A stretch of 64,000 bases of DNA from Monarcha castaneiventris obscurior. Its lineage: Eukaryota > Chordata > Aves > Passeriformes > Monarchidae. The notes under the pieces were generated by a model that was given only the letters and a program-made list of their open reading frames with translations, made no database searches and was not told where the DNA came from. This document shows, in pieces, positions 17,101-61,480 of this stretch (its first letter is position 1; every line of letters begins with the position of its first letter). The stretch spans positions 3,550,501 through 3,614,500 of the forward strand of contig JAMPIT010000539.1 in assembly GCA_026261815.1 (NCBI GenBank). The letters run 5' to 3'. Position numbers and translations under genes: made by a program.

Positions 17101-18900
17101 TGAAATCTAGTCAATGAACAGGCGAGTGTAGGGAAAAACATACCTTGTTTAAAGTTCAATTGCTGGGAGCAGAGAGATCCTGGGGCTGGATCGGGGCAGA
17201 GCAGAGCCGTGCAGTCCTTGCTCTGCTGTCCCTGGGGTGCTCCCCATCACCCTGGGGATGTGCAGCCACAGGGGACGGCCCACCTGGACCTCACCAAGGC
17301 ACAGTCTGGCTGCAGAAGCATTTTATTCCCTGACTGCTGCAGTCCACAAATCAAACCCTCTGTCTCAAGCCCAGGGCTGGGGAAGGACTGGACCACAAGC
17401 TCCTGCAGGGAACTCTGGCCCTGTTTGTCACTGCAGGCAGACTCCTCTCTACAACCACAGCCAGGTCTGCTAATGGTTATCCCCGTGTCCAGCCTGAGAG
17501 CTGCTCATCACTGGCCTCTCCACACGGGCATGAGATGCCCAAGCTTGGCACATGATGCCTGCCACTTAATGTCCCCATCGAGCCACAGAGAAACCAAATG
17601 GACTGGAAAGCTGGCCTGGGATCGGTGCTTCCCTTCCAAACTGGCACCCACGGAACGCAGGACTCCTCTCCGCTTTCAGCCTGGCATCCCCCCCAGCCCC
17701 CTGCCCAGCTGGCCATGGCCAGGACAGCAGCACTGCCGGGGGCTGCTGCCTCTCTGCCTGTGCTGCAGCTGCTGGGATGGGGTGTCCCTGCTGCCTCATG
17801 GCCTGGCAGCACTGACTGTGCCAGGGGGACACAGCCCCGGTGCCCCAGGGCAGGCACAACGCTCAGCTCCCTTTGGCACTGGCCTCACAGCCCTGCCACC
17901 AGCTCAGACAGATGGTGAGCGAGCCCAGCTCCATCTCCTGGGGCTGTTTGGCCACTACAGAGAGCTGCTCAGGCCAACCCGAATGTGGCTGGCCGCTGTC
18001 CATACCCCAAATGCAAATATTTGGGCAGGAGTGGCTGTAAGCCCAGTGGGTGAGACTCTGTGTTTCCCATGGAGGCCAGGGAAGGGGGATGCCCCACAGC
18101 AGCTCCTGGGATTTCCTCACCTGCAGACACCAAATCTGATGCTCAGGAGCCTTCACGAGCTCCTCCAAAAGCTGCATTTTGGGCATATACACTTTCTGCC
18201 AGGGCTGGTCTGGCTCCCAGGGCAGGATCCCAAAGTACTGGCCACAGAAATCTGCGTTTCCCGTACTGGTCTCCCTTTGAAACCATTCTCTTTGATTTGT
18301 GGCTGTTTCACCTCAGCTCCTCCCGCGGTGACGGCTGCGCTCCAGGGCCCTGCTGCGGCCTGTAGGGAGCAGCCAGTGCCAATCAACCCCTGGCTGCTTT
18401 CATAAAGCTGTGGGTGTTTTCTGGTGTTCTCTACAGTGATGTCTTTCCATTCGACCCCTTCAGTGCCTCCTTCACACCCTCTTTTAAATCTGGCAGGTCC
18501 ATGGATGGAGGGACGCACGGAGGCTCTTGGAAGGGCTGCAGTGATATTACTGCTGCCTTCAATTCCCAAGGCCTAGGAACCAAAACCAGTGTTCCCCCAC
18601 ACAAATCCGTAACATTCTTTGCACACAGCCAGTGCCTGTGGCAGTAAAACTCCCGTCACTAATCTGTACTACTCCCCTTCCTACAGAAAAGAAAGGAGTG
18701 GGGTTACCATGCTGTCAAGGGATGATGAAACCATTGCAGTCTTCTCTATATACCCAAAAGAAACCTTTATCAGCCTGTGTTTGGGGCCAGAGGTCTGCAA
18801 AAAGCAGAGCTCTTAAAAATGAAATAAGAAGCCTTGAAGAATTTTTATTTGCTATCTCTGCTCACAGGCAATTAGAGGAGCAGGACATGAGGTCTGGTTT
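14200..18900. other. Intergenic, no gene recognised; contains one unusually long open frame
   Basis: No recognisable exons. On the plus strand a frame stays open from 17209 to 18405, with its first ATG at 17473 (310 codons). It shows no known domain, and its codon content looks like ordinary GC-rich non-coding DNA. It is not annotated as a gene. Confidence 0.45.
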
Positions 18901-18911
18901 TATGTGGAGGC

Positions 18912-19336
<425 letters not shown>

Positions 19337-20347
19337 TCAGTTTGTTTTAATTGCATCCCCCTTGCACCACAGAAATGTGTCTTGCATGAGAACTAAAGAC
19401 AGAAAGAACACTCCCTCCATAAAAAGTCCAATCAATACTGCTGGGCAGCCAGAGCCAAGAACATGTCAAAAGTGAGCTGGGAATTAAAAGAAAGTAACAG
19501 ATGTCATTCAAAAGCCCAAGGCGTGACAAAGGGCTGAATCATGCCCTGCCTGGCTGAACAGCCCTGGCAGGATGGGAGCTGTGAGACCAGGGAACTCCTC
19601 GGCTTTGGACATCAGGTGGAAGGCTGGGGGAGCAATGGAAAACCACGTGAGCAACAAGAGGGAGAACGGCCCAGCCAGCACGGGGAGCTTGACCCTGTTG
19701 CAGGAGAAGCAGGAGGGACGAGATGCCAAGGGCACAAGAGTCGATGGCAAGTGGAAGTGTGGGGCAGCAGGGATGTGCAGGGACCACGGGATGAGGGGAG
19801 CAGGGCGAGACCACCCAGTGCTGGAGCCGGAGAGTGGCCACTGTGTGGGGCATGGCAGGAGCCTGAACAAAAGGGGATAGCAGGAGGATTTATGAGCACA
19901 GCCACAGTGAGAGCCAGTTATCCATGACCATCCTAAATCTTGTCAGAGACAGGAGGAGAGGGACGTCTCCAGCGGACAGGATGGAAGATTTAACGCCACT
20001 GTTCCACAGTGTAATCACAGCATGAGCCCCCCACGCCAGGCTGCTCTGTGGGAAGGGGACTGCTTGTGCTTCCAGGGCTCAGAGAGGAGGCAGGAAGGTT
20101 AAATAAGGCCAGAGGCACTGCAAAGAGGCCCAGCACCTCTCCCAAAGCCCGAGGAGGGTCAGGATGCTGCAGCCCAGGGGCAGGGTGCACAGAAAGGCTC
20201 AGGGGCCAGTGGCACACACCAGCAGAGCCCCACGCCCGTTGTCCCACAGCCTCGATTAACAACACTGCATTTCCAGCCCTGCTGCTGCAGTGCCCCTTGT
20301 CCCAGCCACAGAGAGCAGGACACAGCCCCAGGGCAGCATCCCAGGGC

Positions 20348-22230: not shown

Positions 22231-22490
22231 AGCTGCTTGCTCTGAAATTCAAACAGTGGCTGTAATGCAATGTGGAATCTGTCACAGCACTCCCAACACG
22301 ACCCCTTTCATCAGCAGTGGAGCATCTCCCCAGGACAGATCCCCACTGCTGTGGGTCCTATCCTCGCCCCACACATCCACCAGCCCACCAGGAGCCACCC
22401 CACGTTCCAGTGTCTTCTTCTTTTCTCCCCCCAGTACCACGGGAGAAGCTCTCAGACACCAGAGCTGCTCTCTGCTTTTATGTGGAGCCC

Positions 22491-23082
22491 TTCCCTTCCC
22501 TTCCCTTCCCTTCCCTTCCTTCCCTTCCTTCCCTTCCCTTCCCCTTCCCTTCCCTTCCCTCTTCCCTTCCCTTCCCTTCCCTTCCCTTCCCTTCCCTTCC
22601 CTTTCCTTCCCTTCCCTTCCCTTCCCTTCCCTTCCCTTCCCTTCCCTTCCTCCCTTCCCTTCCCTTCCCTTCCCTTCCCTTCCCTTCCCTTCCCTTTCTC
22701 TCTCTTTTTTCTTCCTTTCCTTCCTTCCTTCCTTCCTTCCTTCCTCCTTCCTTCCTTCCTTCCTTCCTTCCTTCCTTCCTTCCTTCCTTCCTTCCTTCCT
22801 TCCTTCCTTCCTTCCTTCCTTCCTCTCTTTCTCTCTTTCTCTCTTTCTCTTTCTCTTTCTTTCTTTCTTTCTTTCTCTTTCTCTTTCTTTCTCTTTCTTT
22901 CTTTCTCTTTCTCTTTCTTTCTCTCTTTCTTTCTTTCTCTTTCTCTTTCTTTCTCTCTTTCTCTCTCTCTCTTTTTCACTCTTTCTTCCTTCCTTCCTTC
23001 CTTCCTTCCTTCCTTCCTTCCTTCCTTCCTTCCTTCCTTCCTTCCTTCCTTCCTTCCTTCCTTCCTTCCTTCCTTCCTTCCC
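22491..23082. repeat. Compound pyrimidine microsatellite (TTCCC)n-(TTCC)n-(CTTT)n-(TTCC)n
   Basis: Nearly 600 bp with almost no purines on the plus strand. The blocks are TTCCC to about 22694, TTCC to about 22823, mixed CTTT/CTCT to about 22985 and TTCC to 23080. All six frames stay open only because pyrimidine repeats lack stop codons. Confidence 0.97.
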
Positions 23083-23099
23083 ATGGCGTGTGAGCAGGT

Positions 23100-24480
23100 A
23101 GGGAAGACAGGGATGTGTCTTTTTTAACCATCAGAGCACCTGTGGCCATGTCTCACCAGCGCTGAAAACAAAGAGGACTGCACTGCCTCATTCCCACAGA
23201 ACCACGGTGATTTAGCCCAGCTGATGGCCCCAAAACTTTCTCCAAACGCTTGGGAAAATACAATGGGAATTTGGTGGTGTGAAAATGTGTTCATTTGATT
23301 AAACAGGAGCGGAGAGGAAATCCGTCAGGGCTTTTCTTCACCGACTCCTCTTGGAACAAGAACAAGAGAGGGAAAGAGAATTTGTCTGAGAAGAGTATTA
23401 AAAGCATTTTTTCACCAGTGTACACTCCATGGCTTTTAATCCTTGAGCCATGAGTTGAAGTCGTGCCTCCCCCAGCCCAGCTTTGGGTGTGAAGGCAGCT
23501 GGCCAGAGCCAGTCCCTCACCCTGCCCTGCTGGCACCAGGGTGCCCAGGGAGAGGCTGGGAGCAGCTCTGGAGCTGCTGGCTCTCTCTCAGACACCCAGA
23601 GCAGGCCAAATAACCTGTGACACTTGCTCAGACAGTGCCTCCCTGTGCGTGTGCTCCAGGGCTGCACACCCAGTGCCTGGGATCTGCACTTACCTGGGCA
23701 AACATTTGTTTTGTGCTCTAACAGCAAGGTGAGCAGGCTATTCCCCTGTGTAAACATCAACTCCTCAGACATAAGCACTTCTGAGCTGTGCTGCACTCCT
23801 CTCTTGAAACAGCCTCTCTCCACGGTGAAATCTGCTGCGTTCTCCTGTGTCAACAGAGTCAGTGCTCGAGGCTGTCCTGGACTCCTCTTAAATGTCTCTT
23901 GTCTTGGATGGGAACAGTCTGAGGGTATTTATTTATCCATTTTTAGATGCACTCTGTTCCTCGTGCCATCTCAGTCGATGGGTCTGCAGGAAGACAGGAC
24001 GGTCAACAGCACAGACACGGGAGGAAAAGGGCTAAACCACACTGGGGTTGTCCTCCCAGGCTAATGTGGTACCTGTCTTGAAAGATAAAGGGATTACAGT
24101 AGTTTCCCCTCTCTGGGAGATGGTGACCAAAGCAGGAACATGTGGGGAGTGGGAGGACCCAAAAATAGCCAAAAGTGACTCCTGGAACAGGAAGAATGAG
24201 GCTGGGGGGAAGGTGCCAGCAGAGCTCCCTGCAGGGCAGGTTTGTGACCCATCCCAGTGTCTCATTTGTGACCTGCTGGTGGCTTTGGAGCTGGGCCAGG
24301 AGGCAGCAGGAGCAGATGGAGCTGCACAGCCCAGCAGCCAGCCCGGGACAGCTTGGAGCCCACTGGGAGGGGAACGAGGAGCACAATGTGCAGGGCTCAG
24401 GCTCAGGAGCTTGGGGTCAGGAACAGCTGTTTCCACTGCCCAGCAAGGGCTCGTCCATGGGCAAGGGCCAAGGGAGAAAA
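23100..24480. other. Intergenic, no gene recognised
   Basis: No repeat or exon that I can name. A poly(A)-type motif ATTAAA near 23300 has no gene attached. Confidence 0.45.
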
Positions 24481-24483
24481 TTA

Positions 24484-25275
24484 TCACAGAATCACAGAAT
24501 CACCAGGCTGGAAGAGACCTTCAAGATCATCGAGTCCAACCCATGTCCGAACACCTCAACTAAACTAAACCATGGCACCGAGTGCCACATCCAATCTCTT
24601 TTTAAACACATCCAGGGATGGTGATTCCACCACCTCCCCGGGTAAACCATTCCAATATTTTATCACTCTTTCTGTAAAAAACTTTTTTCTAATATCCAAC
24701 CTATATTTTCCTTGGCACAACTTAAGGCTGTGTCCTCTTGTTCTGTCAGCTGTTGCCTGGAAAAAGAGACCAACCCCCACCTCACTACAGCCACCTTTCA
24801 AGAAGTTGTAGAGAGTGGTAAGGTCGCCTCTGAGTCTCCTTTTCTCCAGGCTAAACAGCCCCTGCTCCCTCAGACGTTCCTCATAGGGCTTGTGTTCCAA
24901 GCCCTTCACCAGCCTTGTTGCCCTCCTCTGGACACGCTCAAGCGTCTTCACATCCTTCCTGAACTGAGGGGCCCAGAACTGGACACAGCACTCAAGGTGT
25001 GGCCTCACCAGTGCCCAGCACAGGGGAAGGATGACTTCCCTGGTCCTGCTGGCCACACTATTTCTGATACAGGCCAGGATGCCATTGGCCTTTTTGGCCA
25101 CCTGGGCACACTGCTGGCTCATGTTGAGTCAGCTGTTGACCAGCACTCCCAGGTCCCTTTCTGCCTGGGCATTGTCCAGCCACTCTGTCCCCAGCCTGTA
25201 GCGCTGCAGGGGGTTACTGTGGCCAAAATGCAGGACTCGGCACTTGGACTTATTGAACTTCATCTTATTCATTAT
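24484..25275 (-). mobile_element. CR1 LINE, 5'-truncated, with ORF2 C-terminal remnant
   Basis: About 790 bp of the CR1 3' end. On the minus strand, 25122-24565 stays open for 185 codons and encodes the C-terminal end of the CR1 reverse-transcriptase polyprotein ([47 protein letters not shown]). The untranslated 3' end follows, with ATTCTGTGATTCTGTGAT at 24484. Upstream of 25122 the frame is closed by a stop, so the copy is dead, but the intact 3' part suggests moderate age. Confidence 0.92.
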
Positions 25276-30786: not shown

Positions 30787-31321
30787 GCACTTTTGCCACT
30801 CTAAGCATGTTGGCCCCTCCAGTGTTGTCGTGTGCTGGAGTGGAAGAGCTGCACAGCCTCAGGACACGAGTCTCACTTTCCCAGACACATCTCACCCTCA
30901 GAAATGGTCCCAGCAGCTCTTCCCTCTCCTGCTGTCCGAGCCCCTGCTGTGTTAAATGTTGTCATAAGTCACCTGCAGCTTTCCTGTACAAGGGCAGCTC
31001 CCACAGGGTGGGGAAATCCTTCCAGGACTTCCCAGAAGTGTCAGCTCTTGTCTGACCCAACTGCTGCAGCAGCCAGCAGCTGAAACAACCTAAAACCTCA
31101 CCCGTGCAGAGCCAGGGGCACAGAAATGTGGCTTAAAAGAGGCCCCAGGAGAAAGCCGGAATGAGAACAGGAACAGAGGAAGGAAGCACGGACACTTTCC
31201 CCTCCAGCACGCTGTGGTTGCAGGGGTTTCTCAGGCTGATTTGTTTGGTTTAAAAGCTGCTCACAGCTGGTTTGTGACCACCAGGAGAGCAGGGGACAGC
31301 CTTGGGGACAGGATGTTTTAG

Positions 31322-31695
31322 GGGGGAAGGGAAGGGAAGGGAAGGGAAGGGAAGGGAAGGGAAGGGAAGGGAAGGGAAGGGAAGGGAAGGGAAGGGAAGG
31401 GAAGGGAAGGGAAGGGAAGGGAAGGGAAGGGAAGGGAAGGGAAGGGAAGGGAAGGGAAGGGAAGGGAAGGGAAGGGAAGGGAAGGGAAGGGAAGGGAAGG
31501 GAAGGGAAGGGAAGGGAAGGGAAGGGAAGGGAAGGGAAGGGAAGGGAAGGGAAGGGAAGGAAAGGAAAGGAAAGGAAAGGAAAGGAAAGGAAAGGAAAGG
31601 AAAGGAAAGGAAAGGAAAGGAAAGGAAAGGAAAGGAAAGGAAAGGAAAGGAAAGGAAAGGAAAGGAAAGGAAAGGAAAGGAAAGGAGAGGAAAGG
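31322..31695. repeat. (GGGAA)n then (GGAAA)n purine microsatellite
   Basis: About 48 copies of GGGAA run to 31560, where the array changes abruptly to about 26 copies of GGAAA. Both halves are nearly perfect. The tract is purely purine on the plus strand. Confidence 0.97.
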
Positions 31696-31699
31696 TTAC

Positions 31700-34600
31700 T
31701 CAGCCTTATCAGCCTCATCAAATGTTCACCTGGTAACTCCTCTGAACTTACAGAGAACACCAGCAGCATCAATACAATTCTTTTGCTGCATGGCAAAGTC
31801 ACGAGCTGCCATGGCAGAGGGCAGTGCAGAACATGCTGTGCTGGAGCCACAGGGCGAGTCCAGTGGGTCAGTGCACAGAACTCCATCAGCAGCTGGGGGG
31901 TCACTGGAGCATCCCCAGTCCAGGCCAGAGCTGGGTTTGGAGGTGGCAGCTGAGAAATTTGCTGGGCTCAGGAGACAACAGCTGTGCTGGTGAGCAGGTA
32001 GGAAACACCCCAGCCTGAGGTCTGCCAGCAGCTGAGCCTCCCCATCCTCCTGCTCCACACCATGGCTGGAGAAGGGAGAAGGAGTAACAGCCAGCTACTC
32101 CATGCAAACAGGTCTGTCAGTCTGAGCTCTCCCAGAGCACTCCCTGTGCCTGACAGAAAGCAATCAAGCCCAGGCCAGCTTACAGGGAACCTTTGCCATT
32201 GCTTTGCAGTAGAAAGATTTCCATAAACTGCTGGTTTGGTTGTTTTTTTTTTTTCATGAGACATTTTGTCTCAATTTGTCTTTCCCTAAAGGTCATTCTT
32301 ACAGACAGCAGCCCACTGGTGCCCATCAGTCAGAGGCTCTGACAAGCCAGAGGATCTGTCAGACCACATTTTGCCTCCCAGCTACATCCAAGGTTTCGCA
32401 TTCAACACTTTTAATTCCCCTAATGGGGTTTTCCCTTCAAGGCTAGCACACTACCAGAAACCAGCACAAGGCAGAGCTTGGCACAGGAGTTAAAATCCAT
32501 GTCACTGCCAGGGAAATGCAGGTAGGCACAGCAGGAAGGCTCCAAGCAGACACTAGCCAGGTAAGAGGGCACAGAACAGTCCCAAATTTAGGAGCATCCA
32601 GATAAGGGTGAGATACCCAGGGATCACAGCAGCCTGGGGAGGCTGGAGTCAGACCCTCTGGGAAAGCATCAGGAGGTGGCAGGGCTCTGTGTCACTGTCT
32701 CTGCGTCACCTGCTGGCTGCAGAGCTGGCAGGAGAGCCTGGTCACAGGGTGTGGGGCCCTCCTCCAGCACAGAACGGTGAAGAAACTCCACAAGAAACTC
32801 GTTCTGCTCCTGCCAGTCCTTTTGGAGGGCAGCACCCGAGCAGGGACTGCAGCTGGATGACCCAGACGAAAAACCAGGCATGTGGCAGCATCAGCTCCGA
32901 GAGGAGCCGTGTCAGCACTCAGAATTTAGAGAAATCATTTACACTTCCCTTTTGCTGAGGTGCTGGAAGGCAGCATGGGCTGAGCCTGGGCTCACCTCAG
33001 CCCAGACTGATCTCACTGGGATGTGAGGAGTGGCTCTGGGATACCTCAGGACAGTGACCTGGAGCTGGGGCCAGAGACTGGGTAGGAGGGAGAAGGGAGT
33101 GCCAGGGAGCAAAGAAGGCTCACTGTGGAGTTTAGGCCCAGAGAGTTGTTCATAATCATGACATAAATAAATGATTTAAAAGCTGAGGTAGGGCGAACCC
33201 CCTAAGGCCCCAGAATAAGCTGCAGAGGCAGCATTACGAGCCTGAGTCTCATCTTAAAGATGTGGGCACAGATGAAGTGAGACCCCAACCCCCACATCTC
33301 AGGAATGGCAGTGCAAACTCCAGAGCTGAGCAGAACCCCCCTCAGGGGTAACAGGAGCTGTCCCATGGATGTGCAAGGGAACAGATTTAGCCAAGTCAGA
33401 TGCCCCATGAACTCACAGACAAGTGAGTTCACAAGCTGAGCATGAGGCCTGCGGGAAAACAGATAAAACCAGCCCCAAGAGGAGGAGGAAACCCCCACAG
33501 TGCTCCTGGCAAAGAGTTGAGGAGGGCGATGGCTCTTTGCCCCCACTGCCTGGACCCCAAAGCACTTGGGAGAGCCCAGCACCAGGGGCACAGGGGAAAT
33601 CCTGGCTCTGACTTGTAGCTCCAAGTGCAGCACTGCTGATGGCATTTGTTAGGTATTGATTGCACAATCAATAGGCTGCCAGCGTTAGTAGCATTTTAAC
33701 TGGGCTGATAATAACAACAACTGCTCATTGCAGTTTTGGTTATGCTGTGAAAACTTTTAATTAGACAAACAATACATTTTGTGCTCGGCATCAGGAGGTG
33801 TCTTTGGCTTTTGGGCGATAACACCCCCCAGCTGGGCCAACACATCTCTGTCCTGCCCTGTCCCCCAGGGGGGATGAGTTCAGGGTATCTGACTGCAAGG
33901 CAAAGCTCAGCCCCACACCAAGCTGCTGCAGGGTCCATCCCTGTCTGCTTCACCTCCTGCAGCCTTCCCCAGGCCGCTTCTGGGGACAGATAGATGGGAC
34001 AGGCACCATCCTGAAGATTGGCACGAACCTGACAGTCCCCCAAATTGTGCCCCAGTGTGGGGCTGCTCAGCCCTGGCAAAGCCCCTCTGTGTGCCCATGC
34101 CAGCTGTACTTTCTCAGTCCAGAGAGTTTTCCCACCGTGAAGGGAGGATACAGAGGAGCTCGGCCACCTGGCACTGAGCTGGTTAGCCCCAGGTCCCCCA
34201 TCTCAAATAGAGACATTGTCCAGCTCCCCCAGCAACCCAAATAAGGCAGGCATTTCTCCATCTCCTCTGAGCCCCTGTCCCAGTGACTGGCAGCATCTCA
34301 GGGCTTCCAGGGGCAAGAAACAGCCTGTGCTCACAGCCCACCCAAGGTAACAGCTCACCACAGCATGCTCACTTTTAATTTGCTTGTCCAAGCAATAAAG
34401 CAGAAATGAGATATGGCAGCTAATTAAAAGTATCGATTCATGTGGCATTCAAAACCACCCGGACCAAGTCAGGGCGGGGAAGGAGGGATGAAGAGGCTGG
34501 AAGAGAACAGAGGACGGCAAGACTGCAGTGCTGCAATCGGGTGTATCCTTGCTCCCTGTCATTTCTCACGCGGGGAAGACTCCTCTGCTCTTAACAGCCC

Positions 34601-41534: not shown

Positions 41535-42958
41535 TCACTGCTTCCCACCAGGTGAAGCTTTCTCCTCATCCTCAAACAGACTGTCTGAGCTATCAGAGAA
41601 GAAGTCCTCCAGTTCCTCCTGCCTCATCTTGGACTCCAGAGCAGTGATGCGCTGCTTGAGCTTCATCTGGGCATCGTTGTACTCAGTCAGGAGCCGGCCA
41701 AAGCGGGTGTGCAGCGTGTCCAGGTTCCAGGCCACCCTGTCCAGCCTCTCCTCCATGCTCTTCCCTTCTGTGCTTTCCTCTGCTGCTGACTCATCCAGCA
41801 GCCCTTCCTTGATTAGGATCTCCCGGCCACGCTCCTCCAAGATCTTTTTGGCGTCGGGATACTCTGTGACTGCCTCCATGAGATCTTCCTTTGACAGGCA
41901 GAAGAGATCAGAGTAGCCCAAGCTGCGGATGTTGGCTGTGCGCCTGTTGCCCATTTTGCTGCCTTTGATGTTGAGGATGCTGATCTCCCCAAAGCAGCCC
42001 CCTGCAGTGAGCAAAGCGTACTGCGTCATCCCATCATCCGCCACCACGGCCAGCTTGCCCTCCTTGATGATGTACATCTCCTTCCCGATGTCCCCTTTCC
42101 GGCACACGTAATCCCCTGGGCTGAACACCTGAGGGCGAAGCTTCAGCACCAGCTCCACCAGCAGCCCCGCCTCACAATTCTGGAAAATCCTCACCTTCTT
42201 CAGTGTCTCCAGGTGAACGTTGATGGCAATCTCTGCCCTTAACTTGTCGGGGAGATTCTTGAGGACCTCCCGTTCGTCTACTGCCTTCTTGTTGGTCCAC
42301 AGGTAGTCGAACCACTTGATGACTTTGGTTTCCAAGTCTTTGCTCACCTTGCGGAACTGCATGTAGTGTTTGATGGCGTCGATTTTGGCCTGGAACTCCG
42401 CCCTGGTGGCGTTCATGTTGGATATCATGGACCCCACGTTGCCCACGATGGTGGCGAAGATGAGGACGCCGATGAGGAAATCAAAGATCACGAAGAGGTA
42501 CTCTTCATCCCTCACGGGAGGAGGGGTCTCCCCGATGGTGGTCAGAGTCAGCGTAGACCAGTAAAGGCAGTAGATGTACTCCCGGGTCAGATACCCATAC
42601 TCAGGGTCCGTGACATTGGGGTAGACCCAGCTGTCCTCCCCGAAGCCTATGGCCTTGGAGATGGCATAATAAATGCAGGCATTCCAGTGGATGATGACCA
42701 GGATGTAAAGAACCAAGTTGCCGATGCGGAAGACGTTGGGGTGGCTGGTTCTGGTCTCGGTCCTGTCGAAGAACTCAAACATGCGGGAGAAGCGCAGCAG
42801 CCTGTTGAAACGCAGCTCAGGGCAGTGCAATCCCACTGCAAAATAGGCCAGGTCTGTGGGCAGGATGGAGAGAACATCCAGCTTGAACTGGAGCATGTGG
42901 ATGTAGTTATCCCGCAGCTTCTTCGGGTCCTTAACCAGGAGGCCCTGTTCCAAGAATC
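41535..42958 (-). CDS. CNGA2: CNGA2 exon 6 (S3 to C-terminus)
   Basis: A single 1424-nt exon carries S3-S6, pore, C-linker, cyclic-nucleotide-binding domain, coiled coil and an acidic Ser-rich tail ([17 protein letters not shown]). One large last exon is the known layout of CNGA genes. Acceptor CTCTTTAG/GATTCT, stop TGA at 41537-41535. Confidence 0.98.
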
Positions 42959-45900
42959 CTAAAGAGAAGCAAACCAAGGGATTGTCTTGGTTTATGGTCG
43001 ACTCTTCTGCAGGTTTTGTAAGCACCTGAGCAGCAGTTTATGGCATGCCAGGGATTTGTCGTCAGGGGTCACCCAAATACTACCCGTTCCACCTGCTCTA
43101 CTCAGTTTGTTATCACTCAAGCCCTTCATCTGGCAAAAGCCACCCAAAGGTATAACTCAGGGGTTTAGTCTGTTGCCACGAAGAAACAGGGACACAAAGG
43201 TTTCCACCCTACAGATCATGAATTATTGCAGTTCTGACAGAAAAAACACGGCCAAGTGCTGCCTTCCGAGAACATTAAATTCTACCATTTTTCCATGCAG
43301 ATAATTCATTAGCTGAACTGATGCAAAATCAGAGATACAGACCTTCAAGTATGCCCGAATACTAATAGTAATGCGGGTAATTTTGTACGATTATTCAAAG
43401 GTGAAGTTGAAAGCTGGGATGATTAATCTTTCATATTGAAACTTACTCCCTTTCTCAGATCTTCTAATTAGATTCTTTCTCTGGAGACTGCTCCGTGCTA
43501 GTGAACGCCAAGGTAGACAAAACCCTCCTTCTAATGGAACTGTGGGTTAGGCCTGTCCCTTGCAGCTCATCTCCACTTTTAAGGGATTAAAGGAAAGGCA
43601 GGATGCTGCTCACCTGTGTGCAGGCGGATCACGGTGTCTCCGAGGTAGAGAGCGTCTGAGATGTAATCTAACACCAGCCACAGGACAAAATAGGTCTTCT
43701 GCAGGTCAGTGAAGCAAGCCCTGGAAGAAGGTCGTCAAGCAGGGTGTGAGACCACAAATCCCCACATCTTCTCTAACTATTACAGCTGGATACAGGCTGA
43801 TCCTGAGGCACCCAACTCTGCAACACAGCTTGGCCACTGGGCACTCCTCTTCTAAGGATCAAAACTCCCTGCTCTGAAAAATCTGCCCTCCCTCGGTGTA
43901 GGCAAAGCAATGTCTTGAAACCACCTCCCAAATGACCCTGAGACCATGGCCCTTTCCAGCTGGGCCGGAGGGTGGATGCTCTGCCTTTGCACCACAGAAT
44001 TCATGGTGATAGTGGAGGGTCCCTTTCCTTTCGGTGCCCACCAGCCCCAGAACCGTCAGTGTCAGTGTGATCCTGGTGGAGCCACAACATCCAGGGGATC
44101 AGGAGGGTCAGAGGAGGAGGCAGGGACCCTACAACCTCCCAGCTCACCTGGCTACAAGCAGGCACCAGTTGTAGAGGACAGGAACTGCAATCACAGCCAG
44201 CCAGTGGTAATACCAGTCCCCCGCAGGATCCACCACAAAGAACAGCCATTTCTTCCTGGAAGCAGAGAGAAAAGCCAGAGCTGGCAGTGTGTGTGCAAAA
44301 GAGGGCTGGAAGGAACCATCTGAGCCACATCCTCCATCCCTTGCACCGCACTGCCTCGAACAGAGCTGCAGCTTGGGTGCCAGTCTGTAAACCAAAACCA
44401 ATCCCAGCAGTGCCTCACCCCAGCCCTGTTTAGGTTCCTTTATCCCTAAAACGGAGCTGAGAATGCAGAAGAGGAAACTCTGGGAGGGGGAGGCACAGCA
44501 GGCGGCCCACACGGCACAGCACCCCAGTGGCACAGCCAGGAACAGGTGGATGGAAGAGGGTGACCAGAAAAGTTCTCGTGACGTGACATGACATTGCTTC
44601 TCCCAGATGAGGTAGGGACCGGTGCCAGGCAGATCTGAAGAGAAGATTAATTGGAGCAGGAAGGGAAGCGTGCTGCAGATCAGTGGCAGCACCGGGAGGG
44701 GCTGCCCAAGCCCCGGAGCAGTGGCCCCGGGGGCAGCTGGCATGGCAGGGCTGCCACCACTGTGCCTCCTGCAGTCTGCACAGCCCGGGGTCCAGCCTTT
44801 GAACTGCTCCCAAGTGTTTGATCCTGCTCGTCTTGGGACTCTGAGATAAGAAGTGCGAGCTCCAGTTGCCAGATTCACTGGAGAAGCCGGGGAAGAGGAA
44901 CTCTGTGGCTGGGCTGATAGGCTTAGCTGCTGCAGCCTGATAGAGCAAAGCACCCTCTCCCTCCTCCCCTCCCTCCCTCCCAGCTTTTGAACGCACAAAA
45001 CTCCCTCCAGTGACAGGAAAGAAAACAACCCATTCGCCAACAGATTCCCCGTGCCCACCCCGTTACTTCTGGCAGCTTCAAAGGCAGAGCCCCTGCATGG
45101 AAGTCTCCTTTCCCTGGAGCCCAGGCAGTGCCTGGAGCATGGGGACAGCACTCAGCACAAAGCCAGCCCCAGTCCCTCATGTTCACCCTCTGTGCACCCA
45201 CAGACAAGTGGTGGTCCAGCCTCCCCATTTAAAGGGCTTATTTTTAACCAGAAAGTGCAACTTGAACATTTGGGGGTTTTTTTGAGAAAGAGGCTCTGCT
45301 CCCTAGGACACAAAGCACTGCTACAGGGAAAGCACTGACCCACCTGCAGCCAGCCCAGCCACTTGTGGCACCCACGGGCACCTCAATAATGCTGTTAATG
45401 ATGTTGGTAATTTCAGCTTTAAATCACCAGTGCTGCCGTGAGTGGTGACCAGAGTCACTGACATCACACTGACAGCCAGGGCTGCAAAACGGGGCTGTGG
45501 GTTAACCCAGGAACGGGGAATTATCATCTGCCACTTCCCAAAGGCTTTGCCCTCAGACCTGGAGCCGTGGAGCCTGCACACCATGAGCAGCAGCTCACAT
45601 GTGGGATCACCAGACTTGGGGCTCTTCTTACCTGTGGGGCTGAGGACCCAGAAAACCCCAGAAGTTCCCACTGTGCACCCCCAGAACCCACTGGCCCTTT
45701 CACAGCCCTTTCACAGAACACTTCAGCTCCTTCTAGTCATGAATGAGCTCCTCTTAACCTCCCAGGGCAGACCAGTTTTTCTTCCATTACTAGTAAAGAC
45801 CCACATACAAGGCTCAGATTATTTTTCTCCTACAGAAAACAATTATTTCTTGGTGTTTTAATTACCATGTATAATGGTAGGGTCCAGACTAGTCTGTGAG

Positions 45901-52393: not shown

Positions 52394-52525
52394 TCATCTT
52401 CTCATCCAGAGCCACGTGTTGATGAGGCAAGCAGAGATCATCACGGAGTACACGAGGGCCTCCTTCTGTCTCCAGGCATGGCACTGCTCCTCCAGCACAC
52501 GGAGCCTCCCCGAGATCCTCGCCAG
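52394..52525 (-). CDS. FATE1: FATE1 exon 6 (coiled coil and tail anchor)
   Basis: 132 nt, acceptor CCCTTGCAG/CTGGCG, stop TGA at 52396-52394. It holds the coiled coil and a 17-19-residue hydrophobic anchor that ends in the short basic MRR, as in MFF (WLWFRR), consistent with insertion in the outer mitochondrial membrane. Confidence 0.95.
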   Translation of the reverse strand: MARISGRLRVLEEQCHAWRQKEALVYSVMISACLINTWLWMRR

Positions 52526-55500
52526 CTGCAAGGGAAGCAGTGGGGCCACTGTCAGCCCTGCAGCAAAGCACAGGACGCTGTCAGCACCCCAAAAGCATGG
52601 GACAGCAAGGGATGGAAGGATGGGAGCTGCTGCCTCCTTCAGGCCCTCCTTTTCTGAAGCAGCAGCTACCTTTGTGTGGGAGGACTGGCAGCAGGACCTC
52701 AGGCCTGCAGCAGATGCTTCAGGAAAAGGTTCTTACCCATCAAAGAGCATCTGAGCCACTCTCACTGCCACCAGACAGAGGGGTCTGGCTGTGTCCTGCA
52801 GCCCTTCAGCCCCTCAGGGTAGGAGCTCGATGAATCAACACACACGTGAGTCCTCTCCTGCTTCTCCTTAAGGCAGGACCAGCCTGACAGCACCAGCCCA
52901 GCAGGACTGACCAACTGACCCCTGCAGCCTCCTCACCCAGCCCCTGTGGCTTGCCCAGGGAACATCTGCAGCCCTTCACCCCCATCTCACCTGCCTCCTC
53001 ATCGCTGCCACCTCCGTCACCCCAGCCTCCTCCAAGGCGCTCTCTGCAGCTGGGATGGGCTCCTGGGAGCTAGGAAAGGAAAGCAGAGATGCAGGTGGGC
53101 AAGCACTGCTCGTGGGGGAGCAGCTGACTCCCCAGAAAGGCAGCACTGCCTCGGGGAGCTGACCTGTGCAGGCAGAGTGTGTCCCCAGGCCGGACTGCCT
53201 GGGTGCAGCACCACGAGAAAGCAAACAGCAGCTGCACAGCATCCACTCATCTCTTCTTAACCCCACCATGCACATTTGTAACCCCCCAGCATGCACCCAA
53301 AGGGATCAGGACAAACAGCCAGCACATGCCATGCCAGGTACCAGGGGAAACACATGCTGGTATTTCTGGAGAGATTCAACAAAGAAAACATATCTGCTAA
53401 GCACCCATTCTCTGCGGTCCCAGGAGTTCACTGAGGGCTGGATAAATCATCTTTAGAGCCAGTCAAGTATCACAGGGCCAGTGCAGAGATGGAGGGGTGA
53501 TCCCATTTAGGGGTGATCCCATTTACATCAGCAGGGGAGGAAGCTGCCATCAGCTGGAGGGAGCTATCACTTTTTGCTCTTGTAGAAAAATTTACCTGCA
53601 ATTTGAAACATAAACAAGCCATCCAAATGTTCACCACTTTCTTCCCTCCCTGGAAACACAGGGGCCCCCACTGGGATTAGCTGCTGCACTGGCAGAGGCA
53701 GCACAGATCTCCAGGGCACTCCCTGGAGGCACAGGGTCAGCAACACTGAGTCACAAAATAAACCAGATCCACAGTGAGAAAAATAAAAATTCCTGTCATC
53801 GTAGGCTAGCCCAAAATCAGCTGTTCTGTAACCAAAACCGTGCACACTAATAACTCACACAGGCACTCTCTGATCCCGTAGGGGTTAACAAGCATCTAAC
53901 CCTGCTCCTTGGAGACCATGAGGAGGAGAAGGTGTTTATCCCTGTCTGCAACATGATGCTGATCTCAGTGAAGACAAGCCAGAGGAGCATGTGGAGATTC
54001 ACTGGATCTCCGTCTGAAACTCCATTTGTGAGACAATACCTCCACAAAATGTAGCCACAGTGTAAAATGACAGCCACAACAGAAAGAAAATGCAATTCTC
54101 CCCGGTAGAGAACCATGAAAAAAGGACACATCCTGCAGCTTTTGACTCAAAATCCCAGTTGATACAGGTGAACACCCTTTAGAGTGGAGACTAGAAATTG
54201 CCTTCTGATGACTCACACCCTTCAAGAGGTCACAAGAGCCAGATATTCCAGTCTCTGTCTGAGACCAGACTTTGCTAAAATTTCAGGACAAACAAGTCAG
54301 CACAGTCTTTCTGTTTATTTTATTGCTGTGCAGGAGTACAAAGCTGTCATATTGAAGGGATGTCTGCAGCTGAAGGGATGTAAAGTACTGAGAAGAGGTG
54401 TTTGAGGGTGGCTGGTTTCAAAGGGAGATCAAGACCCGGGGAGAGGCCCCGGAGTCATCCCACTGCATTACAGCAGCTCTGCAGGCTACCATGGCCTGAA
54501 TGCCCTCCACTGCTGGAGGGAGGAGAGAGAGAAGGTCTTATGTAGCCACTAACCAGATCTCTTGGTCATTAAGAAATTAAAATGATGTTTGAAGACAGCC
54601 TCAGCCTGCTGTTTTTAAGAGCAGAGACGTTGCTTTGCATCATCAGCAAGCAGCAGCCAGCTGGGGAGGGAAGGCAGGACGTGCCACCGATGATGGATGC
54701 GATGATGGATGCTCGCCCTCCTCCCTTGCTGCCTGGAGGCTTTGCTCAAGGAGAATGAGAAGTATTTAGATGTTCCTCCAGGTGCTCAGCAGCCTTAGAG
54801 CAGTGGGGACATCTTAAGGCTGCAAGGAGGTCTTTGAACAAACAGAATTTACTGCAGTGGCACAGATAAGGGTGGTGGAGATGGTTCCTGCAGCATATCC
54901 GGAGGGATTGAGGCCACTCCACACCTGCTCCAGGGAGCACAAAGGCACAGCACACCCTGGCCAGGGGCACTGGCTGTGGGATGGCTGCAGCCAGTTCATG
55001 GAAAGGCTCATTAAGAGTGACCAAGACACAGCCAAAGCTGCTGGGAGCCTGCAGGAGAGGCCAGCTCAGGGACAGCACCCGGGTCAGGCCGTCTGCTCTG
55101 GATTTTGATTCCCTTCACACACCCCTCTCCAACGAGCTAGCAAAGCATACAGAAAAATTAGTCCTTGCTTAGCAGTGACCCCCCAGCAATGCCACAGCAG
55201 CTCTGGGTCACTCAGGGTGCCCAGGGGACTGGTGTTAAGCTGAGATGCAGACTCAAGCCTGGCTGGGTAAGTGAGGTGCCCCAAGGCCTGGCACCCAGAG
55301 CTGGCAGACAGGACAGGTGAGAAAGAAGGGCCAAGGCAGCCATGCAGCACCATCCTGCAGCCCAGAGCTGACAGAGCTCGTGCCCGGCTCACGCCTCAGC
55401 AAGGCACAGGCCAGTCCTTGCAGAGTGACAGAGAGCTGGCTCGGGACAAGCCAAAGTCACCTGGACGGCGCTGGGTCTTGCAGAGAGTCCTGGACACGGT

Positions 55501-57914
55501 GGAAGAGCACCTGGCCCAGGAGGTACAGGGTCTGGAAGATGTTCTGCATGGAGTAGATCCTGCCTCCCTCCGTGAGGAGGGGGAGTGGGGCACTGGGAGC
55601 GGGCGGGGGACCCGAGTCCGGCCTGGGTGCACACAGAACCACTCCTGTTACTCCCTGGCCTCGCACAACAGGGCACAGCCTGGCATTAGTGCCCCTCATC
55701 CCTTCAGCAGCTCCAAGCGTCTCTGGGCAATGCCACTGGCACCAGACTCCAATGTCATCAGCTGGGAGAACCCTCTCCATCAGCTGGAAGAACCCTCTCC
55801 AGCAGCTCCCAGACTCAGAGGCAGCCCCCTGACTCCTCCAAAGCCAAGCATGGCTGTGAGCCATGCTGCTCTCCTGCCACCCAGCACAGCTCTGGACTTC
55901 TGTGGGACAGCAGCCCCTGCTCCAGGATTAGCTCAGAGACAATTTCCCCACTGCAGAGACTCTGGAGCCCAAGGCCATGAGCAGAGGCCAGGGGAACAAC
56001 ACAGCTGCCTTCAAATCTGCCCAGCTCAAATGTCTCTGACACCAAAGGCCATGCTCCTCTCACGGATGTGCAGGACTCGCCAGGCATTGCATTGCTCTGC
56101 TTTGAATCCCCCATGCCCCTCTCAGGACAACACCAGAGAGCTCCAAAACAGCCCAGTGAGAGGAGATGCTGCTCCCCACCCACCCTGGGTGATGCTGGGC
56201 CCGTGCTCACCCCTCGTGGTGCTGTCCTGGGCTGTGCAAGGCCAGCTGGGCACAGTCACTCGGGGTCCTGTCCCGCCGTGACCTGCTGCTGTGATGGCCC
56301 TGTGGGAATCAAACACAGCCACGTTAGCACAGAGCTGAGCCCAGCCTGGTGCCCTGGGTGGGCTGCAGGGGCCCATCTGCACGGGGACAGCACCCAGGGG
56401 TGGGAGCACTACAGGAGCCCCAGCCTGGTGACCTGATGCTGGTGCAGGTGGGGAGATGTGCTCAGAGGGTCCCAGCATGAGCCTGCTGATCTGAACTCCA
56501 GCCAGATCATAAACCCTGAACCTAACCCATCCAGGATCGGTTCTTGAATTTCAGGGAGGTTAAAGCACTTCAGGAGGCAGAACAGCACCTCCAGCAGCCA
56601 AACCAAGTCTTTGCTTGCCCATGCCTGGGACCTCTCTTTGAAAGTTTCACACAAGGATAAAATCTGCTTTTGACTCTGACCCCAACACCCTTTACACAGC
56701 AGTGATGAGCCAGCTCTGCCTCGTACTTCATCAAGACGAAAAACAGGTTGAAAAGGGACTTGAAAAGTAGCAGCAGCCTGTGATGGGACTGCACCTACCT
56801 TAGCCTACCCCCTGCTCACAAAATGCAGGAGATGTGGCTGAATCAACATCCCAGCACGCAGGTGTGCCCTGGTTCTGGGACAGAAAAGAGATCCCACCAT
56901 CCCCACCCCCTCACTCCTAGGGCCTCCTGGGAGATGAATCCTGGCTCAGGGTGGTAACAGCCACCTGGAGAACCCCAAAGCTGGGACTGCTCCCGTTCCC
57001 CACCACGGGCACCCCGTCCCTGCCCGCACAGTACCGATCGCTTGCGGCGCTGGGCGCTGGCTCTGCTGGCTGAGGGCAGGAAAGGGAGGTCCCCAGAGGG
57101 GTCTGGGGACACGTGCACCACGACAGAGGGCACCTTCCTCGGCTGGGTCAACAGGACTGGCCTCAAACTGGTGTCTGATATCTCTACAGAAAGGAGAGAG
57201 GGAAGAGTTAAGCCAACCTGAACGGCCTCGGCAGAGGAGAGAAGAGAGATGCACCCACGTGGAGAGCCAAGCCTGTGTCTGGTGCCAGATGAACACACAC
57301 CATGCCCTGGGTTTTTGGGACAGCCCAGAGAGGCAGACCCACTGCTTCAGGACAGCAGGGCTGCAGAGCTGTTTGCCAAAGACAGGGCCAAATGTCCTGC
57401 ATCCCAAAGCAGGGACCCTACCAAAGGCCAAGAGGGAGCTGTAAGAGACAGGGAGGGAGATGCCTCCACATTTTGCTCCTCACCCGTTGGAACTAAGGCC
57501 CCTCCAGACTTCTGTCGGTGACCTTTGCCCACCTCTTCCCAGGCCATCCACCATCCTGTGCTACACTCCTGAAGAAAAGTGCCTACATTACCAGCCCCCA
57601 CCCTCTCCCCTAGCAAAGCAAACGACTGGGGGAGGGTTACACAGGGATCCTACTCCCCAGGATGTTGTAGTGCCCCACCAACCTTCAGCCACCCCAAAAG
57701 ACAACCCAAGGGCTTTACCCGCAAGAGAAATCCTATCAGGGATGTGCATCCGAAAGGACGGAGGGACATCCTCTGTCCTTGTCTTCCTGTCCCCAGGGCT
57801 GCAGCTCTCTGCCACCTTCAGCCTGTTGGGGACCTGCATCCTCTGGTTGATGGCTTCTGTGAAGAGCAGGTCACAGCGCACCCGGTTCAGGTCCAGTCCC
57901 CAAAGCGGCCACAT
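52394..57914 (-). CDS. FATE1: FATE1 orthologue, tail-anchored MFF-family protein, six-exon coding region
   Basis: Member of the MFF/FATE1 (Miff domain) family: adaptors anchored by a C-terminal membrane helix in the mitochondrial outer membrane and ER contacts. MFF recruits the fission GTPase DRP1. Exons (minus): 57914-57719, 57183-57035, 56299-56211, 55559-55461, 53069-52991 and 52525-52394; all phases match, giving 744 nt and 247 residues. N-terminus: two MFF-type repeats, QRMQVPNRLKVA (24-35) and FRMHIPDRISLA (54-65). Middle: basic Ser-rich stretch and a helix IYSMQNIFQTLYLL (146-159). C-terminus: coiled coil MRRQLARISGRLRVLEEQ (201-218), then anchor VYSVMISACLINTWLWMRR. LRVLEEQCHAWRQKEAL matches human FATE1 better than MFF, and the place beside CNGA2 and PRRG3 agrees. 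Exon 3 is the least certain; it is chosen by phase and splice sites. Confidence 0.88.
52991..53069 (-). CDS. FATE1: FATE1 exon 5
   Basis: 79 nt, acceptor CTTTCCTAG/CTCCCA, donor AGGCAG/GTGAGA. It ends in VTEVAAMRRQ, equivalent to LEMEVMRRQ of human FATE1 and VDAASLRRQ of MFF. Confidence 0.92.
53100..55440. other. FATE1 intron 4, no further exon recognised
   Basis: Minus-strand open frames at 53567-54131 and 54746-55078 are short and show no family. Repeats are not obvious. Confidence 0.4.
55461..55559 (-). CDS. FATE1: FATE1 exon 4 (amphipathic helix)
   Basis: 99 nt, acceptor GGAGGCAG/GATCTA, donor GTCCAG/GTGACT. GIYSMQNIFQTLYLLGQVLF resembles the GILSLIQSSTRRAYQQILDV helix of MFF. An alternative acceptor CGCTCCCAG about 28 nt upstream keeps phase and would add nine residues. 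Confidence 0.72.
56211..56299 (-). CDS. FATE1: FATE1 exon 3 (predicted)
   Basis: 89 nt with a good acceptor (TTGATTCCCACAG/GGCCAT) and donor GAGGG/GTGAGC. Its phases (0 in, 2 out) are exactly those needed between exons 2 and 4. It encodes HHSSRSRRDRTPSD and LHSPGQHHEG. Similarity to MFF is weak, so the exon rests mainly on splice sites and phase. Confidence 0.6.
57035..57183 (-). CDS. FATE1: FATE1 exon 2
   Basis: 149 nt, acceptor TTTCTGTAG/AGATAT, donor GATCG/GTACTG. It encodes ISDTSLRPVLLTQPRKVPSV and ends with a basic Ser motif QRRKRS, at the place where MFF has RLKRERS. Confidence 0.8.
57719..57914 (-). CDS. FATE1: FATE1 exon 1 coding part (two MFF-type repeats)
   Basis: Start ATG at 57914 has A at -3. 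The exon probably begins at 57937 after acceptor GAAAGCCCAG/GACACC, so a non-coding exon lies upstream. Donor GCGG/GTAAAG. It encodes FTEAINQRMQVPNRLKV, which parallels YTEGISQRMRVPEKLKV of MFF, and the second repeat. Confidence 0.9.
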
Positions 57915-60290: not shown

Positions 60291-60700
60291 CTGGTCCGGC
60301 ACCCCCCGTTCGCCTCTCGGGGTGGGGGAGCTGGAGGGGGCAATGGGTTTGCTGCCAGCTCTGCCCTTGGGCTCGGGGATGAGCCTGGTCCCGGCGGAGC
60401 GGGGTCACCGCCAGGGGAAGGGGCTCCTCACCCGGCTCGGGGTGAGCCCCGGGATGGCTCCGGGCACAGGGGGGGCGATGGACAGGGGGGTCCCAAGCCC
60501 TCCCGGTGGGGACATCCCGGCCCCACTGTGCGGCCGGACAAGGGGGACACTGCGGCCCGGGGGAGGGACACTTACTTTTATTTCGCAGACCGACGCAACT
60601 TGTCGGACCTGTAAACAGCCGCGCCCGCTGCCGGGACGGGGCGGTGCCGGCGGGGGCAGCCCGGCCCCCTCCCCGTAATGAGCCCGGCCCCCGGTAATGA
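60290..60700 (-). promoter_or_regulatory. FATE1: CpG-rich promoter region and probable non-coding first exon of FATE1
   Basis: A CpG-dense block carries the strong minus-strand donor AAATAAAA/GTAAGTG at 60576/60575, which would join to the acceptor at 57938. The exon's start is not defined; it lies between about 60600 and the minisatellite edge near 60675. No in-frame ATG is needed, because translation starts in the next exon. Confidence 0.5.
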
Positions 60701-61480
60701 GCCCGGCCCCCGGTAATGAGCCCGGCCCCCGGTAATGAGCCCGGCCCCCTCCCCGTAATGAGCCCGGCCCCCGGTAATGAGCCCGGCCCCCCGGTAATGA
60801 GCCCGGCCCCCTGGTAATGAGCCCGGCCCCCGGTAATGAGCCCGGCCCCCCGGTAATGAGCCCGGCCCCCTCCCCGTAATGAGCCCGGCCCCCGGTAATG
60901 AGCCCGGCCCCCCGGTAATGAGCCCGGTCCCCTCCCCGTAATGAGCCCGGCCCCCCGGTAATGAGCCCACCCCCGGTAATGAGCCCGGCCCCTCGGTAAT
61001 GAGCCCGGCCCCGGTAATGAGCCCGGCCCCTCGGTAATGAGCCCGGCCCCGGTAATGAGCCCGGCCCCCCCCGGTAATGAGCCCAGCCCCCGGTATCCAG
61101 CCCGGTTCCCCCGGTATCCAGCCTGCCCCCGGTATCCAGCCCGGCCCCCCGGTAATGAGCCCGGTCCGGTGTCCAGCCCGGCCCCCCGGGTAACTAGCCC
61201 GGCCCCCGGTATCCAGCCCGGCCCCCCGGTAATGAGCCCGGCCCCCGGTAATGAGCCCGGCCCCCAGTATCCAGCCCGGTCCCCCGGTATCCAGCCCGCC
61301 CTCGGTATCCAGCCCGGTTCCCCCGGTAATGAGCCCACCTCCGGTATCCAGCCCAGTCCCCCGGTATCCAGCCCAGTCCCCCGGTATCCAGCCCGGTTCC
61401 CCCGGTATCCAGCCCAGTCCCCCGGTATCCAGCCCGGTTCCCCCGGTATCCAGACCGGCTTCCCCGGTATCCAGCCGCTC
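60675..61480. repeat. C-rich minisatellite, 18-19-bp units, abutting the FATE1 promoter
   Basis: The first half repeats CGGTAATGAGCCCGGCCCC with occasional CCTCCC insertions. From about 61085 the unit changes to CCGGTATCCAGCCCGG, with some mixing. Both share CCCGG...CCCGG ends, so one derives from the other. Unit length is near 18 (six codons), which is why long repetitive frames stay open. Confidence 0.96.

Follow-up and report, generated by a model that had tools for sequence, protein, structure and literature searches.

Gene content of the locus

The window (the whole 64,000-nucleotide stretch that was analysed) contains a six-exon gene on the minus strand, running from 57914 to 52394, whose exons join into a single open frame of 268 codons plus a stop. 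The five introns have phases 1, 0, 2, 2 and 0, and 5/5 have GT-AG boundaries. The exons and the neighbouring gene are as follows.

41538..43037, minus strand: most of the CNGA2 gene, an open stretch with CNGA2 as its best PDB match (E = 1.7e-266)
57719..57914, minus strand: exon 1, with the start codon, repeat 1 FTEAINQRMQVPNRLKVA, repeat 2 SFRMHIPDRISLA and a phase 1 donor; assigned from splice sites and frame
57035..57183, minus strand: exon 2, a predicted disordered linker, unstructured in the AlphaFold2 prediction for protein P0001, which is 94% identical
56211..56299, minus strand: exon 3 (89 nt), with the basic stretch SRSRRDRTPSD, opposite the 89-nt exon of MFF that carries GRLKRERSMSEN
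55461..55622, minus strand: exon 4 (162 nt), with the predicted helix RIYSMQNIFQTLYLLGQVLFHRVQ; absent from the predicted short isoforms as well as from placental FATE1
52991..53069, minus strand: exon 5, with ALEEAGVTEVAAMRRQ, where the coiled coil starts
52394..52525, minus strand: exon 6 (132 nt), with the rest of the coiled coil, the tail anchor LVYSVMISACLINTWLWMRR and the stop; equal in length to the last exon of MFF

Exon 1 encodes both repeats (QRMQVPNRLKVA and FRMHIPDRISLA); the coil and anchor residues AMRRQ, LEEQCHAWR and NTWLWMRR are encoded by exons 5 and 6. Miff (PF05644) was the sole Pfam family found in the predicted protein, residues 8–268 aligning to profile positions 3–291 of 291 (E = 1.5e-27); an NCBIfam search gave nothing useful. 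In a whole-genome search with the Miff profile, exon 1 alone matched positions 3–66 (E = 1.4e-8), and exons 1 and 6 singly exceeded the family cut-off (44 and 33.6 bits). Since the Miff match is full-length and both exons pass the cut-off genome-wide, the gene model is not a product of chance. A preliminary description had proposed a bird gene combining MFF-type repeats with a FATE1-type C-terminus, and the open six-exon frame and its Miff match confirm it.

The closest records among the matches listed were predicted proteins of songbirds, that of Vidua chalybeata being 94% identical. Public annotation of this same gene varies between 'FATE1', 'MFF homolog A-like' and 'MFF homolog B-like'; these names show annotation, not function, and given their mixture one name is needed for the gene. 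For the Vidua protein, the AlphaFold2 model is of low quality as a whole (mean pLDDT 54.6), values of 70–90 being reached mostly in the C-terminal helix and in that of exon 4. It contains a short, low-confidence helix beside repeat 1 (residues 16–25), the exon-4 helix (170–193) and a long helix spanning coil and anchor (215–267), the remainder being almost structureless. A Foldseek search with this model returned zero matches.

The canonical MFF gene of the same bird

The bird's own 1.08-Gb assembly was searched with the Miff profile. Seven exon matches were obtained at two loci, two in the window and five on contig C328, where the gene (C328:16096120-16127034) is the canonical MFF: its last exon is 97.7% identical to human MFF. 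The five strongest tblastn matches of human MFF also lie on C328 (84, 79, 70, 98 and 62% identical), the values of 70 and 62% being low because those matches run past exon ends. The joined C328 exons encode 305 residues with intron phases 1, 0, 2, 2, 2 and 0, in a model that assumes a GC donor for one intron and omits one further MFF exon. A search of the PDB with MFF gave one chance match only, to transketolase (E = 0.051).

The window gene has the MFF intron phases minus one MFF exon, and the 89- and 132-nt exons are equal in length in both genes. The window protein and the bird's own MFF align end to end (two-sequence blastp, E = 7e-23), and their repeat cores are similar but non-identical (MQVPNR and MHIPDR in the window gene, MRVPEK and MQVPER in MFF). 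MFF (Tango11 in Drosophila) and the window gene thus have in common two N-terminal M-x-[VI]-P-x-[RK] repeats, a linker, a helix exon, a coiled coil, a C-terminal tail anchor, intron phases and Pfam family. MFF differs in its separate locus and clade, 24% identity, extra exons and an exon-3 serine stretch, while the window gene, unlike MFF, is flanked by CNGA2 and PRRG3. FATE1 and MFF are therefore paralogs over their whole length, with a common exon plan. That the window gene might be MFF itself was ruled out, as canonical MFF is on another contig and forms a separate clade (100/100).

The MFF exon-3 serine stretch, KRERSMSEN, reads RRDRTPSD in the window gene (56211–56299) and RERAPGED in monotremes. 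KRERSMSEN is an AMPK site of MFF, and the FATE1-type paralog may therefore escape regulation by AMPK. Collagen IV neighbours were used in an attempt to date the MFF/FATE1 duplication: collagen IV exons lie ~10 kb from MFF on C328, none were found on the window's contig, C414, and no paralogon connection with the FATE1 region was observed.

Orthology with FATE1

The order of the human genes is CNGA2-FATE1-PRRG3. In the bird, the stretch 41538–43037 scored 888 bits against CNGA2 and 790 bits against CNGA3 in the PDB, and a PRRG3 coding match was found ~1 kb past the end of the window; over 55 residues it shares 84% identity with a bat record that carries the name PRRG3. The three genes have the same orientation, the window gene lying between the other two, in accordance with the position given in the preliminary description. 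A bat record, P0151, contains PRRG3 and FATE1 domains in one predicted protein, a read-through of adjacent genes; PRRG3 and FATE1 are therefore neighbours in placentals as well. The intergenic region between the window gene and PRRG3 holds a GC-rich minisatellite at 60671–61448, with ~20 copies of a 38-base unit.

When manatee FATE1 was searched against the whole bird genome (10 candidates scored), the one match at E ≤ 1 was exon 6 of the window gene, 47% identical. At this threshold the bird's MFF was unmatched, and a second FATE1 was not found. Together with the two Miff loci, this leaves the window gene as the sole relative of FATE1 in the bird genome besides MFF.

A tree rooted on MFF was built from 26 proteins, using the C-terminal 72 residues of each. 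It included the window gene, 13 of the 125 non-placental hits, 10 of the 57 FATE1 records from placentals and two MFF sequences. The MFF clade stood apart with support of 100/100, and a group made up of placental FATE1 and the repeat-bearing forms of amniotes was separated from caecilians and MFF at 99/97 (72 columns in both cases). The repeat-bearing forms grouped with placental FATE1 came from birds, turtles, a crocodile, a lizard and monotremes. Within this amniote group the order is mostly unresolved, and placental FATE1 (100/100) is one long branch of a fan. Forcing placental FATE1 together with MFF was rejected just under the 0.05 level (AU test, p = 0.043). The tree does not unite monotremes with placentals, although a grouping of the two was not rejected (p = 0.395).

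By its neighbours and by the tree, the window gene is the bird ortholog of FATE1. The phylogeny, a check set beforehand, places it outside the MFF clade, and the genome provides no second FATE1 by the manatee search. MFF, on which the tree is rooted, itself carries the repeats, which makes the long form the older of the two states. These sequence comparisons indicate that the repeat-bearing long form is ancestral and not avian only; the earlier proposal that FATE1 arose as an MFF paralog from such a form is supported by the whole-length paralogy and the MFF-rooted tree.

The kinship of the FATE1 C-terminus with MFF is already known: the coiled coil and transmembrane part of FATE1 are reported to be 29% identical to MFF and to place FATE1 on mitochondria (PMC4660212), and in Pfam it is the C-terminus that brings FATE1 into Miff. 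The titles and abstract openings among the matches listed contained no description of the full-length form, its distribution or the loss of the repeats.

Distribution and conservation of the repeats

The non-placental set comprised 125 hits (the best 120 of 151, plus five from a further search), and the placental set 57 records (59 hits minus two short fragments). Among the matches listed, the motif test found both repeat cores in 118/125 non-placental hits, 77 with exon 4 and 41 without it. A stricter pattern retained 105/125 of the same listed hits, the difference consisting of conservative variants such as MYIPER and of the bird record P0037, in which the repeat-1 core lacks its proline (MQVHRL); with P0037 left out, the count among the matches listed is 117/125. 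Forms with both repeats were found in caecilians, a lizard, a crocodile, turtles, birds and monotremes. The retention of the repeats claimed for bird FATE1 is thus correct, both lying in exon 1, but it is not specific to birds.

The seven exceptions among the listed non-placental hits are P0105 and P0111, which are without this N-terminus, and five landfowl records. In the latter (P0086, P0087, P0101, P0104 and P0120) the repeat-1 core is kept and repeat 2 is altered (THIPVR, THVPVG, AHIPAR) or missing, so that landfowl are apparently eroding repeat 2 independently of placentals.

In placental FATE1 the motif test detected repeat 1 in 0/57 records, repeat 2 in 0/57 and exon 4 in 0/57. The absence of the repeats, given for human FATE1 in the preliminary description, therefore holds for all 57 placental records; its further statement that mammals lost them has to be narrowed to placentals, since monotremes keep both. 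No marsupial appeared by name among the listed hits of the non-placental and placental searches, so the loss can be dated no more closely than after monotremes diverged and before placentals radiated. Short isoforms without exon 4 are predicted in sauropsids and platypus. In these it is exon 4 that is missing, and the repeat exon, whose skipping had been raised as a counter-argument, is not skipped.

Conservation was assessed over ten regions in 61 non-galliform bird records of at least 255 residues plus the window gene. The two repeats were the best conserved of the ten, with mean major-residue frequencies of 0.974 and 0.957, compared with 0.910 in the tail anchor, 0.907 across the first 17 residues (N-cap), 0.870 in the coil and 0.773–0.863 in the linker and the remainder of exons 2–5. 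Pairs of segments drawn at random from residues 1–199 were equally conserved in 15/5000 draws. For 16 non-bird sequences, including four exon-4-less isoforms, the repeats (0.886 and 0.878) and the tail anchor (0.900) were about equal.

Placental FATE1 and a possible route of loss

Placental FATE1 has in common with the window gene its PRRG3 neighbour, the MRRQ..LEEQ..WR..NxWLWM C-terminus and the grouping in the tree. It differs in its length, typically 183 residues, its MAGGP start (40/57 records) and the lack of repeat cores and exon 4. The six placental records scanned against Miff (6/6) matched profile positions 217–291 only. The window gene, with both repeats, does not have the short repeat-less MAGGP N-terminus, which is read as a derived placental trait and not as a defining one of FATE1.

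A profile alignment was made between 46 of the 57 placental records and 20 repeat-bearing forms, two of them exon-4-less. In this alignment the placental MAGGPP is paired with the residues that immediately follow repeat 1 (in echidna, KVAGGP), and AEELxPGSxGQSQEHLVIAEMME lies ungapped opposite AEELRPSFRMHIPDRLSLAEMMD, in register with repeat 2. With the C-termini removed, column shuffles of the N-termini did as well in 0/200 and 1/600 cases. By subset, the shuffles did as well in 0/200 for turtles, 3/200 for birds and 2/200 for all but turtles; against monotremes alone the repeat-2 remnant vanished (51/200). The repeat-2 remnant is weak, the hhalign probability between placental and repeat-bearing N-termini being 19%. 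Six placental records exceed 190 residues, and in the four of these that were checked (P0151, P0153, P0160 and P0171) repeat 1 was absent from the upstream extensions. There is thus moderate evidence, from alignment, that the placental start shifted past repeat 1 and that repeat 2 eroded.

The placental form matches the plan of the exon-4-less isoforms. Platypus P0180, which lacks exon 4, has 212 residues and would have ~177 if begun at the aligned site, compared with 183 in placentals. The exon-4-less proteins are mostly predicted isoforms, apart from P0108, a short protein encoded by a 220-residue intronless frame and by eye closest to turtle records. This frame is on contigs of at most 3204 bases from the source 'lgn', presumably Logan, and its lack of interruption fits a spliced transcript. 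From the sequences, the placental loss looks like a combination of start shift, repeat-2 erosion and exon-4 loss, not one clean deletion.

Possible function of the full-length form

The first 50 residues of MFF, with R1–R2, are described as the minimal region for DRP1 interaction (PMC10057413), and an Mff that lacks residues 1–87, the segment with both repeats, fails to recruit DLP1 (DRP1) to peroxisomes (PMC3798195). The MFF coiled coil permits oligomerisation (PMC9221819). Placental FATE1, reported as a cancer-testis antigen at mitochondria and ER contacts (PMC4660212, PMC7140037, PMC8172986), resembles in build the Mff deletion that fails at DRP1 recruitment. Both MFF repeats, taken here as the mark of a DRP1 adaptor, are present in the window gene. 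Because the N-terminal repeats of MFF are its DRP1-binding part, the bird protein is expected to be a second DRP1 adaptor. As the full-length, MFF-like ortholog of FATE1, the window gene probably provides, by analogy with MFF, a second tail-anchored adaptor whose two N-terminal repeats would recruit DRP1 to mitochondria or peroxisomes. The bird protein likely still helps to divide these organelles, and the placental version, lacking the repeats, has probably lost the fission role.

We hypothesize that the tail anchor and coiled coil would locate and oligomerise FATE1, as in MFF, and that the two N-terminal repeats would bind DRP1 oligomers. Toward placentals, the start codon would have moved past repeat 1, the repeat-2 core M-x-[VI]-P-x-R would have decayed and the exon-4-less form would have become the sole form, leaving a DRP1-blind membrane anchor free to take the ER-mitochondria spacing role reported for human FATE1. 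A wider and more tentative proposal, to which we give somewhat less than even weight, is that FATE1 is a lapsed fission adaptor: tetrapods would have inherited two MFF-type DRP1 adaptors, kept by the sampled non-placentals; one would have been beheaded in three steps before the placental radiation and now be a DRP1-blind ER-mitochondria shield reused by tumours, with landfowl repeating the decay for repeat 2 only.

Other readings of the same observations were weighed. The long form might bind DRP1 without promoting fission, either parking it (like MIEF1/MiD) or competing with MFF, with a protective or spacing role being ancestral. MIEF1/MIEF2 (MiD51/MiD49) are likewise DRP1 adaptors on the mitochondrial outer membrane (PMC10057413), and MIEF1 is on record as one that sequesters DRP1 (PMC3578726); the linker between repeats and coil has also diverged, RRDRTPSD replacing KRERSMSEN. 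However, MIEF1/MIEF2 have an N-terminal anchor and a nucleotidyltransferase domain, and Pfam finds no such domain, but Miff only, in the window protein, which has an anchor and coil of MFF type and whose repeats are under stronger constraint in birds than any other part. A DRP1-parking role is on balance unlikely. Still less likely is that FATE1 activity was never DRP1-dependent, the repeats doing something else common to both proteins and their absence in placentals being incidental: human FATE1 is reported in apoptosis and in setting ER-mitochondria distance (PMC7140037, PMC8172986), but in MFF the repeats are the DRP1 binding site (PMC10057413, PMC3798195).

The repeat-2 decay seen in landfowl copies would suit a decayed or misassembled MFF copy without function. 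This is very improbable for the window gene in view of its 268 open codons in six exons, its intact splice sites, the strong constraint on the repeats across the 61 bird records and the P0108 frame; a pseudogene was ruled out by the open six-exon frame.

If the ancestor was a working DRP1 adaptor, as in the favoured reading, this would explain why FATE1 has an anchor of MFF type but lacks the repeats that bind DRP1. The protein of a bird, turtle or platypus would then be a ready control for testing this, and two MFF-type adaptors would exist in non-placental tetrapods, with consequences for the interpretation of fission in these animals.

Other features of the window

The window holds 8 SF-1-type sites against 7.2 expected, a number no different from chance, with none upstream of exon 1 and one in intron 3. 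An open stretch on the minus strand at 24568–25128 resembles a CR1 LINE reverse transcriptase fragment. Long simple-repeat arrays at 18838–19472, 22246–23130 and 31240–31990 give rise to spurious frames of SFFL, KEGR and KGRE type.
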